Shown: piece after piece, positions 6,876 through 24,883 of the stretch
Position numbering within the stretch: the stretch's first letter is position 1
Layout of the letters: each line of letters begins with the position of its first letter
IMG/VR virus record: IMGVR_UViG_3300017748_000063
Span: 1-30,561 of that record
DNA length: 30,561 nucleotides
Reading direction: 5' to 3' (one strand)
From: a virus
Translations under genes and position numbers: made by a program
The notes under the pieces: generated by a model
Told to the model about the DNA's origin: nothing
What the model saw: only the letters and a program-made list of their open reading frames with translations
The model's database searches: none

Positions 6876-7434
6876 ATTTAGGTTTAATATTTTTATCTTT
6901 TTTAATCTCCTTGTCTAATAGTGCTTTCATTTTCTTTTCCTCATCTTCTTTTGACCATTTTTCTTCTGCAGCAGATCTAGTTTTTTCATAATTTATTTTT
7001 GATTCTTTTAGTATTGCTTTGGTATCTTCTTCATTACCAGCAGTAAAAGAATTAACTAAATTAGAAACACTTTCATCAACATTTTCATCAGTTATAACAG
7101 TATGACCTTGTTCAGCAGCTTGATGATTTATTTCTGTCATTAAAGTCATAAGAGTCCAAACAGCATTCATATATGGATCATAAGGAGCATCTTCTGGTAA
7201 ACTTTTAAATCCATCTCTTATATGCATTAAAGTTGATGTTATTGTATCTTCATCTTTAATTGTAAAAAGATAATTTATTGCTTCTGCTATATAATCTCTA
7301 AATGCACCTGCAACAGGAATATTAATTACAGCATTAGGATTGATTGTTACAACTTTACCCGCAGCTATTGCTTTCTTGGTAGCTTGGAGATGTTTTTGTA
7401 TATCTTTTTTGGATAACTTTTTTGCTTCTTTCAT
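6862..7434 (-). CDS. Lone minus-strand hypothetical protein, 190 aa
   Basis: The only minus-strand gene in the first 25 kb. No family recognised. The N-terminal 35 residues are lysine-rich, residues 35-110 look like an ordered helical domain (FRDYIAEAINYLF, YMNAVWTLMTLMTEIN), and residues 130-190 are a long charged helix, possibly a coiled coil, rich in Lys and Glu. It converges on the gene at 6492 with a 14-base overlap and diverges from the DnaA-like gene at 7602. Its separate orientation suggests separate timing. The ATG at 7434 leaves a leader of about 100 bases after the candidate promoter. Confidence 0.7.
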   Translation of the reverse strand: MKEAKKLSKKDIQKHLQATKKAIAAGKVVTINPNAVINIPVAGAFRDYIAEAINYLFTIKDEDTITSTLMHIRDGFKSLPEDAPYDPYMNAVWTLMTLMTEINHQAAEQGHTVITDENVDESVSNLVNSFTAGNEEDTKAILKESKINYEKTRSAAEEKWSKEDEEKKMKALLDKEIKKDKNIKPKSNED

Positions 7435-7547
7435 AGTGGCTTATTTGTTTTAATGTATTTTTACTAAATCTAACACTTGTTTTTTTTATATATGGTGTCT
7501 TTAAGACATTTTGTAAATACTCGTAAGAATTTAAATATATCATTATG

Positions 7548-7555
7548 CAAATATA
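7548..7555 (-). promoter_or_regulatory. Candidate -7 element for the minus-strand gene
   Basis: Read on the minus strand this is TATATTTG, an exact match to the Bacteroidetes -7 consensus TAnnTTTG. Transcription would begin near 7541 and run to the gene at 7434. No convincing -33 TTG lies at the usual distance. Confidence 0.4.
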
Positions 7556-7566
7556 TAAAAAATTAT

Positions 7567-7574
7567 TATATTTG
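7567..7574 (+). promoter_or_regulatory. Candidate -7 element for the replication operon
   Basis: TATATTTG, identical to the minus-strand copy 19 bases away, so the two face in opposite directions from one short AT-rich region. A start near 7580 would give a leader of about 20 bases before the DnaA-like gene. No good -33 element was seen. Confidence 0.45.
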
Positions 7575-7601
7575 TAAACCTTTTAAAACCAATTATTAAA
7601 A

Positions 7602-8129
7602 ATGGAAAATAATTTAATTGAAATGACTAATTATATACAGTCATTTATAAATAATTTTGAGGATGAATTTAACACAAAACTCAAAGTTGTTGTTCTTGAT
7701 TCTAATAAAAAAAATAAACGCAAGAATATTTCTAAAATAAAAATATTAGAAAAACTAATCTTAAGAACAATGCATAAAAAATATCCAGAATTATCACATA
7801 TTAGGTCTTTAAAAGTAACAAGCAGAAGAAGAGAAATAATTGTTTGGGTACAAATATATTCTTACTTAGCTTATGAATTGGGATATACTTTAATGTATAT
7901 AGGCCAGTCTATAAATAGAAATCATGCTACAGTTATACATAGTATTAAAGTAGCTAAAGATCTGTTATCTATTAGAGAAACAGATTTTGCAGAAGTTTAT
8001 GAATTAGTATTAAAATCAATACAAGGATATGTGGGAATTATTTCAACAAATGTTAAAGGAGAATATGACACCAAATCAATTCTTGATTCTTTACGGAATA
8101 AAGAGGAGTCTGTCATTACGCTTGCCTGA
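7602..8129 (+). CDS. DnaA domain IV-like replication initiator, 175 aa
   Basis: Residues 78-125 resemble the DNA-binding domain IV of the bacterial initiator DnaA: a helix IVWVQIYSYLAYELGY, then the HTH with the signature RNHATVIHSIKVAKD, close to the DnaA signature GRDHTTVLHA. The AAA+ domain is absent, so it cannot bind ATP as DnaA does. The N-terminal 50 residues are Asn/Lys-rich. It is followed by a winged-helix-like protein and a DnaB-like helicase, as expected for an origin-recognition protein. It might bind DnaA-box-like sites in the phage or host. The stop lies inside the next gene. Confidence 0.8.
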   Translation: MENNLIEMTNYIQSFINNFEDEFNTKLKVVVLDSNKKNKRKNISKIKILEKLILRTMHKKYPELSHIRSLKVTSRRREIIVWVQIYSYLAYELGYTLMYIGQSINRNHATVIHSIKVAKDLLSIRETDFAEVYELVLKSIQGYVGIISTNVKGEYDTKSILDSLRNKEESVITLA

Positions 8130-8631
8130 TACTGATGATGCAATTATGCATTTAGCAGGACAAGGCTTTATAAAATTAGATAAAAAAGCAAATACAAAAA
8201 TTAGTCTTACTGTTAAAGGTCAAAAAACTATATCTAAATTTGAAAATTATTTTATTAAAGCTAAGAAAAGAACAAATATTCAATTAATGGGTAAAAGTTT
8301 TAATCTTAAATTAAATGAATATAGAGAAATATTTCCTGCAGGTAAATTACCAAGTGGTAAACCAGCAAGAGTTAATGTTAAATCTCTTGAAAATTCATTT
8401 AGATGGTTTTTTGAAAATTATGATTTTAGTTGGAGTGAAATAATGAATGCAACTAGAATGTATGTTAATGAATATAGAGATAAAGAATATATGTATATGA
8501 AAACTAGTCAATATTTTATTGCTAAAGAAGGTAAAAACAAAGTTAAATCATCAGATTTAGCTGATTATTGTGATATGATTAGAGATGGTGTACAAACAGA
8601 AGAAGATCACTTTAAAGAAAAAGTAGTATGA
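8065..8631 (+). CDS. Winged-helix-like replication protein, 188 aa
   Basis: Starts MTPNQFLILYGI, a pattern seen in phage proteins with an N-terminal winged helix (residues 1-55: helices, then DAIMHLAGQGFIKLD and a strand pair KISLTVKGQ). The C-terminal half, residues 100-170 (FRWFFENYDFSWSEI, ATRMYVNEY), is helical and aromatic, reminiscent of helicase-loader domains, but no DnaD signature is certain. The frame is open from 8029; ATG 8065 is preferred because it is preceded by an AAAGGAGAAT-type sequence and cuts the overlap with the DnaA-like gene to 65 bases. It overlaps the helicase start by 4 bases. Confidence 0.7.
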   Translation: MTPNQFLILYGIKRSLSLRLPDTDDAIMHLAGQGFIKLDKKANTKISLTVKGQKTISKFENYFIKAKKRTNIQLMGKSFNLKLNEYREIFPAGKLPSGKPARVNVKSLENSFRWFFENYDFSWSEIMNATRMYVNEYRDKEYMYMKTSQYFIAKEGKNKVKSSDLADYCDMIRDGVQTEEDHFKEKVV

Positions 8632-13335: not shown

Positions 13336-13669
13336 TATTCATGCCAAATCTTCTGTAAAGAAGTTTGGTGGACAACCTGATGATTACATACATATACATA
13401 ATTGGTTAGATGCAACAAAAAGTTGGGTGGGCAATCACCTACACAGAATGTTTCGTCATCACAGTGAAGGTATATTTGAATGTGAAAGAAAATTTGGACC
13501 AGTATTTACAAATTCAGATGGTAAATCTGTTTATACAAGATATGTTGCAGAGCAGCATGTAAGAGAGGACTGTAATAACTATATTCCCTCTGCAAAAGAA
13601 TGGTTAGACAATATTCATAAGAAAAAATTACCCTTATGGATGATTAAAACAATGAAAATAAATGATTAA
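13322..13669 (+). CDS. DUF6915-like protein, 115 aa
   Basis: Residues 1-30 (MAHPNIHAKSSVKKFGGQPD, then DYIHIHNWLDATKSW) and 40-60 (HRMFRHHSEGIF) match a short conserved family found in bacteria and phages (DUF6915 by memory). Many conserved His residues (His3, His7, His24, His26, His39, His41, His45, His46) could bind metal. The end reads AEQHVREDCNNYIPSAKEWL, also family-like. Function unknown. It appears directly after a DUF6878-like gene. Confidence 0.75.
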   Translation: MAHPNIHAKSSVKKFGGQPDDYIHIHNWLDATKSWVGNHLHRMFRHHSEGIFECERKFGPVFTNSDGKSVYTRYVAEQHVREDCNNYIPSAKEWLDNIHKKKLPLWMIKTMKIND

Positions 13670-14063
13670 AATAAATTTAAACACATACAAAAACATATTT
13701 AATTTATTAAATGCAGGTGTAGAAGACATGGAAATTGGTATTTCCAACATATTAAACAGTGATTTATCTGACTCTTCTTTACAAGTTTTAGTAAAATCAT
13801 TACCTGGTAGAAGAAGACATTTGTTTTTAAAATCTTTTTTAGATCAAAAAAGTATAGAAAATAAAAAGTATAATAAAGAAGAACTTAGATCACAACTTAT
13901 TCATGACTGCCTACCGTGGAAAGAATTGTTTAAAAAAATAAAAAAACAAAAACTTTCTAATGTTGATAAACAAATTATAGAACATGAAGTATGTGAGCTT
14001 TATATAAAAGGTATTGCAGAAAGAGAAATGGTTAAAAGTATTAAATTAGAATTAGCATGGTAA
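13662..14063 (+). CDS. Hypothetical protein, 133 aa
   Basis: No family recognised. It is helical and basic, with an N-terminal LNTYKNIFNLLNAG, a middle segment LVKSLPGRRRHLFLKSFLD, and C-terminal helices ending in KLELAW. It overlaps the preceding gene by 8 bases and the following DUF2201 gene by 7, so it is translated with the metallopeptidase/VWA protein and could be its partner. Confidence 0.65.
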   Translation: MIKINLNTYKNIFNLLNAGVEDMEIGISNILNSDLSDSSLQVLVKSLPGRRRHLFLKSFLDQKSIENKKYNKEELRSQLIHDCLPWKELFKKIKKQKLSNVDKQIIEHEVCELYIKGIAEREMVKSIKLELAW

Positions 14064-15220
14064 ATATTGCAGAATCACTTGCAAGAGCAAGTAAAACATT
14101 AATTTTAAGAGAGCCCTTTTACGGGCTCTTTTTAGTTGGACTTAATAAAGTCTTTAGAAATGATATACCTACAGCAGGTGTTAGTAAAAATGGTATAGGT
14201 GTACAATTATCTATTAATACAGAATTTTTTAATAGTCTTAATGATAAACAAAGAATGGGTGTATTAAAACATGAATTGTTACACATATCATTTGGACATT
14301 TAGTAATGAGAGATTTATATACTAATCATAAGTTATTTAATATAGCTGCTGATTTAGAAATTAATCAATATATAGATCGTGATGCATTACCTGAAGGTGG
14401 ATTGTTCTTGGATACATTTCCAGAACTTAAGCTTCCTAAAAAAGCAGGTACAAAAGAATATTATAGACTTTTGGAACAAGAATGTAAAAATAATCCTTGT
14501 GAGTCACTTCAATCTGTATTAGATCAAATGGACGGTGATAGTCAGTATGATCATAAAACATGGGAAGAGTTTGAAGATCTTACAGAAGCAGAAAAAAAGC
14601 TAGTGCAAAAACAAGTTGAACATCAACTTAAAGAAACTGCAGAACAAACTGTTAAAAGATGTGGTAACGTTCCAGGTGAATTAGCTGATCTTATTAAAAG
14701 GCTTACAACTATTGAGCCAGCATCATTTGATTGGAAAGGTTATCTAAGAAGATTTATTGGCAATTCTACAGTATCTTATACTAAAAAACTTAGACGTAAG
14801 TATAATAAAAGATATAGTGACAATCCGGGTCTTAAAATTAAATTTAAGAATAATATACTTGTTGGTGTTGACACATCAGGATCTGTATCTAACAAGGAAT
14901 TAAGGGAATTTATGAGTGAACTTACACATATGCATAAAACTGGTCACATGATCACGGTTGCTCAGTGTGATACACAAATAAATTCAGTAGAAGCATTTAA
15001 CCCAAGAAAAGATTGGGAAATTAAAGGTAGAGGAGGCACAAGCTTCCAACCTGTTATTGATCTATTTAATAAAAAGAAAGGAGTTTATACAGCTCTTATA
15101 TATTTAACAGATGGTGAGGCATATACTCCAGAAAACTGTCCAAATAATACACTTTGGGTTCACAGTTCTCAGTGTGATGTAAATAATGAATTACCAGGAT
15201 TAAAAATACAATTAAACTAA
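14057..15220 (+). CDS. DUF2201-type metallopeptidase-like/VWA protein, 387 aa
   Basis: Two domains. The N-terminal zinc-peptidase-like domain has HELLH at residues 72-76 (HExxH) followed by His81 and a helix NIAADLEIN. The C-terminal von Willebrand A domain starts ILVGVDTSGSVS (MIDAS motif DTSGS at 272-276), with the later LTDGE completing the metal site. VWA proteins of this class work with a MoxR-type AAA+ ATPase, encoded next. Targets in phages are unknown. The first 25 codons contain a perfect terminator hairpin (14110-14129 plus T-run), described separately; the encoded REPFYGLF is conserved in the family, so the start at 14057 is right. Confidence 0.85.
   Translation: MVNIAESLARASKTLILREPFYGLFLVGLNKVFRNDIPTAGVSKNGIGVQLSINTEFFNSLNDKQRMGVLKHELLHISFGHLVMRDLYTNHKLFNIAADLEINQYIDRDALPEGGLFLDTFPELKLPKKAGTKEYYRLLEQECKNNPCESLQSVLDQMDGDSQYDHKTWEEFEDLTEAEKKLVQKQVEHQLKETAEQTVKRCGNVPGELADLIKRLTTIEPASFDWKGYLRRFIGNSTVSYTKKLRRKYNKRYSDNPGLKIKFKNNILVGVDTSGSVSNKELREFMSELTHMHKTGHMITVAQCDTQINSVEAFNPRKDWEIKGRGGTSFQPVIDLFNKKKGVYTALIYLTDGEAYTPENCPNNTLWVHSSQCDVNNELPGLKIQLN
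14107..14133 (+). terminator. Terminator-like hairpin inside the DUF2201 coding region
   Basis: Stem AGAGCCC (14110-14116), loop TTTTAC, stem GGGCTCT (14123-14129), followed by further Ts to 14133. The form equals an intrinsic terminator on the plus strand, yet it lies about 50 bases inside a gene. It may act as an attenuator that lowers transcription of the VWA-MoxR cassette. Confidence 0.55.
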
Positions 15221-15226
15221 AAAACT

Positions 15227-16483
15227 ATGGCACAAGTAAATTTAAATATTGATGAATGTAAAAATTTTGTTAATCATATAATAAAGAACAATAGATTCTT
15301 ACAAGAAGGAAATAAAAATCCTGTAGCAGTAGAGATAGTAGGTGAATCAGGTATTGGTAAAACATCTGCTGTTATTGATCTAGCTAAAGAAAATAACTTA
15401 AATTTTGTAAAACTAAATTTAGCTCAGATTGAAGAGTTAGGTGACCTTGTTGGTTTTCCTGTTAGACAATTTCAGATGTTTAAAGAAAAGAAAATTAATA
15501 AAAGAATTGATGATCTTAACTATACACAAGCACAAAAAGCAGCTGCTGTTGCACAAATGACAGGTATAACTAAAAAGATTGGACAGTGGGTTGATGAGCT
15601 TGCTGTTGAGGAATATCTTAGAACTGGTTGGAAAATGACAGGTAAGAATAGAATGTCTTATTGTGCACCAGAATGGATTTCTGATAAAAAAGAAGGAGGT
15701 ATATTACTTCTTGATGACTGGAACCGTGCGGATATGAGATTTATTCAAGCTGTAATGGAGTTAGTTGATAGACAGCAGTATATTTCTTGGTCTTTACCAA
15801 AAGATTGGCATATAATTCTAACATCTAATCCAGATAATGGAGATTATATGGTTAATAGTATTGACTCAGCACAAAAAACTAGATATATTACTGCTAATCT
15901 TAAGTTTGATGTAGAAGTATGGGCTAGGTGGGCTGAAGAAGTTGGTATTGACACTAGATGTATTAATTTTTTGTTATTACATCCAGAACTTGTAACACAA
16001 GAAACTAACGCAAGATCTATTACTGCATTCTTTAATTCTATTTCAAGTTTTGAAAAGTTTGAAGATAATTTAAGTATGGTTCAAATGATTGGTGAAGGAT
16101 CTGTTGGAGATGCATTTGCATCTATGTTTACTACATTTATTAACAATAAACTTGATAAATTAGTAACACCAAAAGATTTATTAACTCATACAGATGAAAA
16201 GTATATCTTAGGTCAATTGACTAGTTGTGTTGGAAAAGATGATAATTATAGAGCAGATATTGCATCAACTCTAGCTACCAGATTAGCAAACTACTCTGTG
16301 GTTTATTCTAAAGAAAACACGGTAAATCAAAAAATTACAGATAGATTAATTACACTATGTACAAAAGATTATTTTACTAATGATCTAAAGTATTTAGTTG
16401 TAAGAACCATCTTTAATGGTAATAAACAAAAGTTTAACAAGATGATGATGAATCCAGAAATCATTAAAATGACAATTAAATAA
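15227..16483 (+). CDS. MoxR-type AAA+ ATPase, 418 aa
   Basis: ATP-driven remodelling factor. Walker A GESGIGKT at residues 39-46, Walker B ILLLDDWNR at 159-167, sensor 1 ILTSNP at 197-202. The order and the segment between Walker B and sensor 1 (ADMRFIQAVMELVDRQQY) match MoxR/AAA_5 ATPases, which act with VWA proteins as chaperones for metal loading or complex activation. The gene lies 6 bases after the VWA/metallopeptidase gene and 1 base before a pair of unknown paralogues. The C-terminal 200 residues are helical with no known enzyme domain. Confidence 0.85.
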   Translation: MAQVNLNIDECKNFVNHIIKNNRFLQEGNKNPVAVEIVGESGIGKTSAVIDLAKENNLNFVKLNLAQIEELGDLVGFPVRQFQMFKEKKINKRIDDLNYTQAQKAAAVAQMTGITKKIGQWVDELAVEEYLRTGWKMTGKNRMSYCAPEWISDKKEGGILLLDDWNRADMRFIQAVMELVDRQQYISWSLPKDWHIILTSNPDNGDYMVNSIDSAQKTRYITANLKFDVEVWARWAEEVGIDTRCINFLLLHPELVTQETNARSITAFFNSISSFEKFEDNLSMVQMIGEGSVGDAFASMFTTFINNKLDKLVTPKDLLTHTDEKYILGQLTSCVGKDDNYRADIASTLATRLANYSVVYSKENTVNQKITDRLITLCTKDYFTNDLKYLVVRTIFNGNKQKFNKMMMNPEIIKMTIK

Positions 16484-16484
16484 T

Positions 16485-17534
16485 ATGGCAAAAAAATCAG
16501 TACATCAGGAGTTTAATCCTGATGCTATTGAACACTTTGAAATTGACTGTGATCCTTATGGGATCATGGTTGATTCAGGTGGTACAATAGAAACAGTTTA
16601 TGTAAACACGTCACAAGGTTTAACAAATAGAATAGGAAAAATATTTACAAAGAATGCAGATAAAGAACCGGATTTGACATTATATAAAAAAGCATTTTTA
16701 TTTCCAAACAGTCCTGTCTCTACTGAGAGAGTAAAAGCAGCACTTAAAGAACATAAAATTACTTTAACTAATGATTATACTAAAGCAGATTTATATTTAA
16801 CACATGATGATTTAACTAGAGATCATCAAAGTGAAGAGTCTATTAATTCTAGAGCTATGTTTTGCAATTTATGGAATTATGAAGCAGTAGAAGCAGGATG
16901 CGTGTATGTAAATGATTATTGTGAAGAAAATAAAAGAGGTAATGAATTAGCTAGAGTTATTTATGATGCTAAATGTGCTGAGTGGGTTGATAGATATACT
17001 TCAGATCGTCATAGTATGCCTTATGATTCTTATATAGTTACAGGTCTTGCAATTAATACAGCTTATGAAGTTGAAATGGGTAATGTAGCTGTTTGGAATA
17101 TTGATAAGGTAATGCATCAATCAGCCAGTAAAGTTGAACTGACTGAACAAATATTAGATGATATTATTTCTTTAATGAAACAAGGTGGTGCAGAAAACTA
17201 TAATATGGTTGGAGCATTGCTTCCTACTATTGATTGGACTAAAAAATATCATTTGTTATGGAAACTAGGTCAAGAAATAGGTACAGATTTATATATGTTT
17301 AATAGAAATAAAGATGTACAATATTGGAAACAAGCATCTGGTATTTCAGATTATTATCATATGACTGCTTTACAAATGATACAAAGACTTGAAGGCCGGG
17401 AAAATTTAAATAGAGAATCATTTAAGTATTTAGAACCAATAGTTAGAAAAGAAATAAGAATTGATAATAGAGATCTTTACACTTTTAAAGTAGAGGTTAA
17501 ACCTGAATATAAAAAATATAATTATGAAAAATAG
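16485..17534 (+). CDS. Unknown cassette protein A, 349 aa
   Basis: No named family. Three regions are visible: N-terminal residues 1-65; a middle block near residues 68-110 (FLFPNSPVSTERVKAALKEH, then LTNDYTKADLYLTHDDL) that reads as helix-strand with 'T..AD..l' like a BRCT or Rossmann-type half; and a C-terminal block near 215-265 (ELTEQILDDIISLM, ENYNMVGALLPTIDW). Both later blocks align, almost without gaps, with the next protein, so the pair arose by duplication. It directly follows the MoxR gene and overlaps the next gene by 11 bases. Confidence 0.75.
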   Translation: MAKKSVHQEFNPDAIEHFEIDCDPYGIMVDSGGTIETVYVNTSQGLTNRIGKIFTKNADKEPDLTLYKKAFLFPNSPVSTERVKAALKEHKITLTNDYTKADLYLTHDDLTRDHQSEESINSRAMFCNLWNYEAVEAGCVYVNDYCEENKRGNELARVIYDAKCAEWVDRYTSDRHSMPYDSYIVTGLAINTAYEVEMGNVAVWNIDKVMHQSASKVELTEQILDDIISLMKQGGAENYNMVGALLPTIDWTKKYHLLWKLGQEIGTDLYMFNRNKDVQYWKQASGISDYYHMTALQMIQRLEGRENLNRESFKYLEPIVRKEIRIDNRDLYTFKVEVKPEYKKYNYEK

Positions 17535-18669
17535 AAATGTAATAAGTATAGATATAGATTCGCATAAAAACAACTTAAAAAGTCTTGGATTATCAGATCT
17601 TGGTATTTATATTGGTAGAGATGATTGGACAGTAGGAAAAAAATTAATCAGTCAATTATTACCAAAAGACAAATTTCAAAAATATACTAAACAAGATTTT
17701 ATTGATAGTGTTAATACAGTTTATAGATTGCCACATTTAACTTTATCTAGAGATAAATTAGCTTTATTTGCAGAAGAATGTGATTTTAAAGTTACTAGAA
17801 AGAGAGATGTTGCTGATATAATAGTAATAGGTGACCAAACAATTAAAAAGATGGTACAAAATAGCTATTCTAGTAGTATAGATTTTAAAACTCTTAAAAG
17901 TTGTTATAGTATAGGTAAAGAATGGAAAAATTTAACTAGTGATGATCAAAACTGTATGCATAAACAAGTAAAGTTAATTGAAGATTTATATGGTGATGAT
18001 TGTGAAATTACTTTTACACAATCTTATTATTATTCTTCTACTGGTTATGGAGAAAAATTAAGTATATATCGTTCTTATTTAAAAAATTATGTAACTAAAC
18101 AGGCAGGTTATTTATATTATTATCCAAAAACTTCATTTGATAATATGAATTTTGTAAAAAATAATATAGATAAAGTTATTTTTGATTCTGACCTTAATCT
18201 TTTATGTACTGAAGATTCAATTACTATAAATAAAGAAGAGTTTAAAAGTGTTTATAGTATGATTAATTCATTTGATAAAGAAAATTTAAGTGTCGGAATG
18301 ACTATGATGGCTAATTGTAATATAGATAAATCTAGAACTTTTTTATGTTTATTATTTGCAGTGTGTTCAGATAATATGAAAAATAGTAATGTTTGGAATC
18401 AAGTAAATTTTAAATATCTTAGAAAAGAATTTGAATATTATATTGATATTCAACTATCTTCATGGGGACATGCTTATAGTAATTTAATTAAAAAAATGGT
18501 TGAAGATAAATGTTTAACAGCATGGGCAGCAAGTCTTATAGCTTCTGTAATGTTTAAAAGAGTTCTAGAAGGTAATCATCAAGTAGGTGGTAAAGATTGT
18601 GTTTTTAGTTTAAATGCAAATGATTTAAAATTAAAAAATGAATATTTAGTTAAGTTAGTCAATGAATAA
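17524..18669 (+). CDS. Unknown cassette protein B, paralogue of A, 381 aa
   Basis: Shares with the preceding protein the block YRLPHLTLSRDKLALFAEEC, then VTRKRDVADIIVIGD (about residues 67-105), and the block SMINSFDKENLSVGMTMM with NIDKSRTFLCLLFAV (about residues 245-285). The helical C-terminus, with VNFKYLRKEFEYY, resembles a domain common in Bacteroidetes phage hypotheticals. It is rich in Tyr, Ser and Asn between the blocks. Its stop is the first base pairs of a hairpin leader. Function unknown; it is probably a substrate, adaptor or partner of the MoxR/VWA pair. Confidence 0.75.
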   Translation: MKNRNVISIDIDSHKNNLKSLGLSDLGIYIGRDDWTVGKKLISQLLPKDKFQKYTKQDFIDSVNTVYRLPHLTLSRDKLALFAEECDFKVTRKRDVADIIVIGDQTIKKMVQNSYSSSIDFKTLKSCYSIGKEWKNLTSDDQNCMHKQVKLIEDLYGDDCEITFTQSYYYSSTGYGEKLSIYRSYLKNYVTKQAGYLYYYPKTSFDNMNFVKNNIDKVIFDSDLNLLCTEDSITINKEEFKSVYSMINSFDKENLSVGMTMMANCNIDKSRTFLCLLFAVCSDNMKNSNVWNQVNFKYLRKEFEYYIDIQLSSWGHAYSNLIKKMVEDKCLTAWAASLIASVMFKRVLEGNHQVGGKDCVFSLNANDLKLKNEYLVKLVNE

Positions 18670-23812: not shown

Positions 23813-23886
23813 GCACTCATAGCTCAACTGGATAGAGCGACAGCCTTCTAAGCTGTAGGTTGTAGGTTCAAGTCCTACTGAGTGTA
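23813..23886 (+). tRNA. tRNA-Arg (anticodon UCU)
   Basis: Complete cloverleaf: acceptor GCACTCA with TGAGTGT (one G-U pair), D-arm GCTC/GAGC with GG in the loop, anticodon stem ACAGC/GCTGT with loop CTTCTAA (anticodon TCT), T-arm GTAGG/CCTAC with loop TTCAAGT, discriminator A. The CCA end is not encoded. It reads AGA/AGG, and AGA is the main arginine codon of these phage genes, so the tRNA probably supports translation late in infection. An antisense frame over it is an artefact. Confidence 0.95.
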
Positions 23887-23900
23887 CTAAAATAAAAATT

Positions 23901-24047
23901 ATGTCAAGTAGAGAAATTATGAATGCCCAAGGATTTGGGAAGAAGCCAAAAAAGAAAAGTTTAATAAAAAAAATAAAAACCTGGTTTAAAAACTTTATCA
24001 AAAAACATATTGTTGATGAAGTTGACCGTAATGATTTAGAATTTTAA
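23901..24047 (+). CDS. Small basic protein, 48 aa
   Basis: Starts ATG 23901 (MSSREIMNAQGFGKK) and ends at 24047, overlapping the next ATG by one base (TAATG). Residues 14-35 are very lysine-rich with an amphipathic WFKNFIKKH segment; the end is acidic with a hydrophobic tip (DRNDLEF). Coupling to the radical SAM gene and phage-like composition support it. Function unknown. Confidence 0.6.
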   Translation: MSSREIMNAQGFGKKPKKKSLIKKIKTWFKNFIKKHIVDEVDRNDLEF

Positions 24048-24883
24048 TGGCAATAAAATATCAAAAAACCAAAACATTAGTAACAAAGACAAATAACAAT
24101 AGTAGTGACTGCATAGCTCCAAATATAATTTACGGGTGCTACGGGGGCTGTGTAGACACCTATTGTTATATGTCTAGATATAACGGTAAAAGAGTATTTG
24201 TTAATGAAAACATTAATGAAGTATTTAATTCTGTAGTTGAATGGGAAAAAACTTATAATAAAGTTCCTAATCAACAAGATCCTGTATACACAATGGTAGA
24301 CATTGCGTGCAATTCAGATCTAGTTTTGATGCAAAAACATGTACCAGGTACTCTTCATAATTACCTTAAGATGTATGACAATCATCCACAACTTAATAGC
24401 ACTATGGCCACTAAGTATCCAGGGTTATTAAAACTTGATGTAAATCATTTTAATAAGCCACCACGTGTAAGAGTTAGTCTTATGCCTCAAAAGTATTCAG
24501 ATATTCTTGAACCTAAAATGCAAAATATATTATCAAGAATAAAAGATGTAGATAGACTTAAAAAGTTAGGATGGGAAGTACATTTAAATTATTCACCTCT
24601 TATATTTTATCCAGGTTGGAGTGAGGAATATGATGCATTATTTAAACTTGTAAAAAAATATGCAGGTGAAAATAAATGTGAAGTTATTGCTTTAACTAAT
24701 CATGTATACCAAATGAATAGAGCTAGTGAAGAAGCACGTGAGCTTATGAAGTATTCTGATGAACCAAAAAATCTAAGTGGTACATTAAGATACCCGGTAA
24801 GAAAAAAAAGAAAAGCTCTTGATAACTTTGCTAATTTATATAGTAAATACTTTAATATTAACACAATAAGATATATATTCTAA
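24047..24883 (+). CDS. Radical SAM protein related to spore photoproduct lyase (SplB-like), 278 aa
   Basis: SplB uses a 4Fe-4S cluster and S-adenosylmethionine to reverse UV-made thymine dimers. Here Cys31, Cys35 and Cys40 (GCYGGCVDTYCYM) would hold the cluster, but the spacing is CxxxCxxxxC where SplB has CxxxCxxC. Residues 140-200 (VSLMPQKYSDILEP, LGWEVHLNYSPLIFYPGW) follow the SplB pattern closely, including GW..hl..sP.I.Y.GW. A DNA repair or base-modifying role in a sunlit marine phage is plausible. It overlaps genes on both sides by one base. Confidence 0.75.
   Translation: MAIKYQKTKTLVTKTNNNSSDCIAPNIIYGCYGGCVDTYCYMSRYNGKRVFVNENINEVFNSVVEWEKTYNKVPNQQDPVYTMVDIACNSDLVLMQKHVPGTLHNYLKMYDNHPQLNSTMATKYPGLLKLDVNHFNKPPRVRVSLMPQKYSDILEPKMQNILSRIKDVDRLKKLGWEVHLNYSPLIFYPGWSEEYDALFKLVKKYAGENKCEVIALTNHVYQMNRASEEARELMKYSDEPKNLSGTLRYPVRKKRKALDNFANLYSKYFNINTIRYIF

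Follow-up and report, generated by a model that had tools for sequence, protein, structure and literature searches.

MoxR-VWA systems in bacteria and phages

Several bacterial systems, including NorQ-NorD, RavA-ViaA, CbbQ-CbbO, and CobS-CobT, pair a ring ATPase with an adaptor whose von Willebrand factor A (VWA) domain carries a complete metal ion-dependent adhesion site (MIDAS), the target being a third protein. In NorQD, the MIDAS motif is required for maturation of the target, which it has been proposed to bind (PMC9976466), and a finger of the VWA protein inserts into the ring pore (PMC13036017). In phages, adjacent AAA+ and DUF2201 genes are known from PHROG 1297 / 1314, Bacillus phage AR9 (gp28-gp29), cyanophage S-TIM5, Alteromonas phage AD45, and the group 2.2 jumbo phages; we found no paper naming the targets of these phage pairs. 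The present work concerns a five-gene cassette in a virus record of 30.6 kb (IMGVR_UViG_3300017748_000063, the whole of which is called the window below), where the VWA and MoxR genes are preceded by a short gene, X, and followed by two partner genes, P3 and P4. The MoxR-VWA core was already known in phages, and what is new is the P3 and P4 families together with their third, short member X. P3 and P4 are likely the recognition subunits of the phage MoxR-VWA machine: they are always linked to it, they are paralogous, and they have once been exchanged on a near-identical background.

Homology to both window genes is detectable in the known phage pairs, but the neighbouring genes of these pairs match neither the P3 nor the P4 profile, and the window ATPase is about 19-24% identical to known phage MoxR proteins where aligned. 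The Walker B motif also differs, with DD here, DE in AR9, and EE in a Moorella phage. Compared with NorQ-NorD and the other bacterial pairs, the VWA protein of the cassette additionally bears a zincin-like domain, and a new pair of proteins, probably BRCT-like and helical, takes the place of the third component. The MoxR-vWA ternary conflict systems (VMAP, iSTAND, FtsH) likewise add to MoxR and VWA a third component that diverges quickly (eLife 2020, PMC7159879). However, they are bacterial, their third component has peptidase or effector domains, and their description never mentions BRCT (PMC7159879), whereas no peptidase or effector Pfam domain recurs in P3 or P4, as it would in a VMAP-type system.

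Conservation of the cassette

Relatives were gathered by scans of viral contigs (hundreds), and linkage was counted in 165 distinct loci, each denominator being the loci with room for the neighbour in question. Gene order is preserved in every one of them. MoxR adjoins VWA in 159/159 loci, the arrangement of a MoxR-VWA two-gene system, P3 follows MoxR in 151/151, and P4 is found together with P3 and MoxR in 134/134. The neighbourhood survey proposed in a preliminary description of this DNA, made from the sequence alone, thus finds both partners conserved beside MoxR and VWA. That description had listed four genes, all of which belong to the cassette, and had overlooked the fifth, X. Counted over loci with room on both sides, X and P4 are both present in 120 and both absent from 17; P4 occurs alone in 3 loci and X alone in none. 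In some loci VWA and MoxR are separated by an additional gene at least about 405 bp long. A conserved gene of about 130 aa (MGRYYTGDIEGKF...), found there in some phages, for example at L091:7590-8001, is by eye unlike P3 and P4.

P3 occurs without P4 in 14/136 loci, and these belong to a distinct deep subclade with VWA-MoxR-P3 only. There, P3 is followed by a protein that resembles 5'-3' exonucleases by its sequence motifs, and a spore photoproduct lyase (SPL)-family protein, about 30% identical to that of the window, often abuts VWA. In a FastTree phylogeny of VWA the subclade is united with support of 1.0, and a P4-bearing locus, L220, stands beside it (0.71). Because L220 groups with the P3-only subclade, the tree slightly favours loss of P4 there over its later gain elsewhere. 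An origin of P4 within the main clade was dropped, since the placement of L220 leans to loss, and relocation of P4 elsewhere in the P3-only phages, whose contigs are partial, found no support.

P3 and P4 are diverged paralogues

P3, P4, and X have no curated family match in Pfam, PHROGs, NCBIfam, or PADLOC, which bears out the earlier statement that the two partners lie outside named families. Nucleotide searches and tblastn against isolated phages found no relative of P3 or P4, and no solved structure matched their sequence profiles. The suspicion that the two genes arose by duplication had come from a few sequence blocks matched by eye, which are weak by themselves (plain BLASTP of P3 against P4 is uninformative, E 1.7). 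Paralogy itself is established by comparison of profiles built from 56 P3 and 53 P4 sequences. With hhalign the two give a collinear alignment of 279 columns (E 4.7e-7, score 57.8), against scores of 22.2 for a reversed profile, 23.7 for the best of 30 column shuffles, and about 19-21 for unrelated neighbours. P3 and P4 are thus true, very diverged paralogues. X matches the P4 profile at 1.4e-6 (best shuffle 0.089) and, more weakly, that of P3 (4.7e-4). A small open reading frame at window 24883-25194 matches the X profile weakly (E 0.006) and is possibly a further copy of the helical motif.

AlphaFold2 models of P3 and P4 (mean predicted local distance difference test scores of 90 and 87) share their order of elements: two initial strands and a helix, strand-helix-strand-strand, an insertion, helix-strand-helix, and a helical domain. 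Structure prediction, the other check proposed beforehand, therefore gives one predicted fold and not two unrelated ones. In the middle part, about residues 63-216 of P3 with the insertion included, both models resemble the BRCT domains of PARP1, REV1, BRCA1, RFC1, Sir4, and DnlJ, and the BRCT order b1-a1-b2-b3-a2-b4-a3 fits them with the insertion placed after b3. The last part resembles ARM/HEAT-like helical repeats, and in P3 the C-terminal tail is highly conserved. The predicted fold is thus probably a BRCT-like domain with an insertion followed by an ARM/HEAT-like helical domain, the name being graded as probable because the Z values of the structural matches are modest. BRCT as a sequence-level family was rejected, P3 sequences staying below the Pfam BRCT cut-off and P4 sequences giving no match at all, and the BRCT-like fold was retained as probable. 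With Foldseek alone, the P3 model had no significant match in the PDB. In BFVD, both models significantly match the same four proteins only, from crAss-like virus ctYsL76, Podoviridae ctz6O13 (two proteins), and an uncultured phage (A0A6J5LXR8), at E about 1e-5 for P3 and 4e-11 to 2e-6 for P4. These unannotated structural look-alikes are 9-16% identical to P3/P4, and ctz6O13 has a pair of them.

Evolutionary rates and exchange of the partner genes

The motor and its partners evolve at different rates. Among the first loci, median protein identity to the window is 82% for MoxR, 71% for VWA, 41% for P3, and 28% for P4. The median ratio of nonsynonymous to synonymous rates (omega), from up to 49 close pairs that share members and are hence not independent, is 0.058 for MoxR, 0.088 for VWA, 0.214 for P3, 0.27 for P4, and 0.335 for X. 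The motor genes are thus strongly constrained (omega 0.06-0.09), and the partners evolve 2-6 times faster. Whole-gene positive selection is unsupported: almost every pair has an omega below 1, and the handful of values close to 1 or higher come from very small synonymous divergence or from pairs in which P3-P4 was exchanged.

Such an exchange is seen on contig IMGVR_UViG_3300003409_000026 (L147/L092). Outside the P3-P4 block this contig and L214 are about 97% identical, against about 55-60% inside it; with L143, which belongs to a different lineage, the contig shares about 96% identity inside the block and about 65-80% outside. Both breakpoints are no more than tens of bases from the outer ends of the block, the P3 start and the P4 end, showing that P3 and P4 were swapped as one two-gene block, and therefore that a single P3-P4 pair is found alongside two diverged motors (whose MoxR proteins are 82% identical). 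An assembly chimera could explain this only if both breakpoints had fallen at gene edges by coincidence. Another case, L099 against L190, is one-sided because one contig ends there: MoxR is 99% and primase 100% identical, P4 is 38% identical, and the change lies at P4 only. The mirror-tree correlation of P3 and P4 beyond background is weak (partial r 0.17) and was not used as evidence.

The MoxR and VWA proteins

The window VWA protein matches DUF2201_N (3.9e-17) and DUF2201 (1.1e-16) in Pfam and has both the HExxH motif and a full MIDAS (DxSxS, T, D), as members of this family do. HExxH....H and DTSGS are invariant in an alignment of 48 sequences, and all four motif checks are positive in 345/357 frames. 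Homologues of the protein occur in 345 phage records and are widespread among tailed phages. The PHROG that it matches, phrog_1314, carries the label 'HNH endonuclease', and many RefSeq phage records name the family likewise; because Pfam assigns DUF2201, this name looks like a propagated misannotation. In the unrelated Planktothrix phage Pag-Yong1 (L109), a gene annotated as anti-CRISPR AcrVA2 (7112-8152) lies two genes past the VWA-metallopeptidase.

The ATPase matches phrog_1297 at 2e-35 but stays below all Pfam curated cut-offs (AAA 18.0, AAA_5 17.2, AAA_3 16.1 bits), with relatives reaching AAA_5 matches down to 5.9e-5. Its profile cross-matches the ATPases of several phage MoxR-VWA pairs, and its closest solved relative in the PDB is midasin (6.6e-8). 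Because of these two matches and its pairing with VWA, we call it MoxR-like, not a member of the MoxR family. The Walker A motif (residues 39-46), N201, R219, and R263 are invariant in 31 sequences. In three loci (L163:3927-6322, L144:2937-5260, and L161), an insert of about 1.07 kb splits MoxR at Walker B (LLLDDWNRA / DxRFIQ). Judged by a sequence motif, it encodes a GIY-YIG-like homing endonuclease; it is probably a self-splicing intron, and an Rfam scan over it gave no match.

A proposed mechanism and its alternatives

Adaptors that choose the target would fit partners that vary and are exchanged around a conserved motor. The unbroken linkage, the replication and recombination genes nearby, and the BRCT matches of both partner models likewise speak for such a role. 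We tentatively propose, at close to but short of even confidence, an ATP-driven remodeller whose exchangeable BRCT-like adaptors pick a target on phage or host DNA complexes. The MoxR ATPase would assemble into a hexameric ring, on which the VWA protein would dock, with its MIDAS metal binding the target at an acidic residue; the zincin-like domain of the VWA protein may also cleave the target. P3, in most phages together with P4 and X, would serve as adaptor. Their BRCT-like domain would touch the target, which could be a replication/recombination protein or one bound to DNA of the phage or the host; their ARM/HEAT-like domain would touch the machine or fellow adaptors. A phage-encoded chaperone, as suggested in the preliminary description, would by analogy fit known MoxR-VWA biochemistry.

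Several observations weigh against this proposal. The catalytic glutamate of Walker B is an aspartate clade-wide (DD rather than DE, with DDW in 406/413 matched frames), and ATP hydrolysis may for that reason be slow or altered. Contacts among the cassette proteins are putative. The BRCT structural matches cover 70-86 residues at Z of about 4 to 7, under the tool's safe level, and only 5/56 P3 sequences touch the Pfam BRCT profile, the best at E 0.017. The omega values indicate no clear gene-level positive selection, and fast evolution also fits clients or relaxed constraint. Only one block exchange is cleanly two-sided, and recombination-gene neighbours are commonplace in phage early regions.

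The main rival makes P3 and P4 the clients: MoxR-VWA would mature or disassemble a P3-P4 complex that works in phage DNA replication or recombination, much as NorQD matures nitric oxide reductase and CobST acts on CobN. Strict linkage is compatible with a machine that serves one substrate of its own, the best-characterized MoxR-VWA pairs have their client as third component (PMC9976466), and the conserved C-terminal tail of P3 could be a recognition tag. As a general expectation, though, clients should be at least as conserved as their chaperone, and within the cassette conservation is lowest for P3, P4, and X; moreover, a whole subclade keeps VWA-MoxR-P3 without P4 and X. We regard this model as unlikely, if seriously to be considered. 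A recognition pair that evolves fast and is exchanged, with the L099/L190 case in which P4 diverges beside near-identical MoxR and primase, would also suit a role in counter-defence or host takeover, with P3-P4 binding host defence or polymerase proteins for MoxR-VWA to unfold or cut. Yet defence and anti-defence models give ATPase cross-hits alone, and the genes are fixed in the clade, whereas anti-defence genes are usually scattered; we consider this role quite improbable. The host takeover put forward in the preliminary description is possible because partners that evolve fast and are swapped as a block indicate variable targets; the neighbouring genes indicate DNA replication and recombination at least as much. 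A chaperone in virion assembly that processes structural proteins has been published for the two-gene core, the MoxR-vWA-metallopeptidase pair of group 2.2 jumbo phages (PMC7824862), and would agree with the spread of the VWA homologue in tailed phages. In the related phage G002, however, the replication arm houses the cassette (8.8-13.4 kb), with the capsid, portal, and terminase genes on the other strand and tens of kilobases away. Although location alone leaves function undecided, gene context does not speak for this explanation, and we consider it very improbable.

The locus and its phage group

The five genes occupy 13.6-18.7 kb of the window (Table 1) and are closely packed (gaps 1-6 nt, overlaps 7-11 nt): the X 3' end overlaps the VWA start by 7 nt, VWA and MoxR are 6 nt apart, MoxR and P3 1 nt apart, and P3 and P4 overlap by 11 nt. 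They form a single tight operon within a replication/recombination block. The close packing of the DUF2201 protein, the ATPase, and the two partners had been described correctly, with exact coordinates, and so had their setting in a phage replication region. Upstream are a DnaB-like helicase, a Sak4 annealing protein, a primase, and RusA; downstream are a PD-(D/E)XK nuclease, a DNA polymerase, and an SPL-family protein, the cassette itself being flanked by the RusA-like resolvase on one side and the nuclease on the other. The SPL-family gene (window 24047-24883) matches TIGR03886 at 2.7e-38, under the model's cut-off, and a gene for tRNA-Arg (tct) lies at 23813-23887.

Table 1. Genes of the cassette, with positions in the window.
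Gene	Position	Strand	Features	Basis
X	13662..14063	+	133 aa, ARM/HEAT-like helical motif common to P4	hhalign vs P4 profile
VWA protein	14057..15220	+	N-terminal zincin-like metallopeptidase domain (HExxH), C-terminal VWA with MIDAS (DTSGS, T, D)	Pfam DUF2201_N, DUF2201
MoxR-type AAA+ ATPase	15227..16483	+	Walker A GESGIGKT, Walker B LLLDDWNRAD	phrog_1297
P3	16485..17534	+	probable BRCT-like domain, helical C-terminal domain, conserved C-terminal tail	AlphaFold2, structural matches
P4	17524..18669	+	diverged P3 paralogue, matching element order, fast-evolving	AlphaFold2, hhalign to P3

Among 84,980 species genomes of bacteria and archaea, matches were limited to three metagenome-bin contigs with identical gene order, which are probably viral. 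The phages that carry the cassette appear tied to a large uncultured crAss-like group, as read from the portal and capsid of the related phage G002. The G002 portal is 35% identical to that of Leptolyngbya phage Lbo-JY46, followed by csAssE-Sib, Cellulophaga phi17:2, and crAss phages, and its capsid is likewise tied to crAss-like phages. In Lbo-JY46, the nearest cultured relative, none of four cassette gene profiles matched; seven further crAss-like or Cellulophaga phages gave no match to the four profiles either, a weak negative obtained without a positive control. Most of the IMG samples carrying the cassette are presumably marine.

Significance

A machine that strips or cuts DNA-bound proteins, made of an AAA+ motor, a VWA-zincin protease, and BRCT-like adaptors swapped as a pair to retarget it, is a long shot. 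If true, it would be a viral counterpart, in function and not by descent, of p97 and SPRTN in the removal of DNA-protein crosslinks. MoxR-VWA pairs are common in phages, and with the P3 and P4 families, what these machines act on becomes directly testable in a large uncultured phage group.

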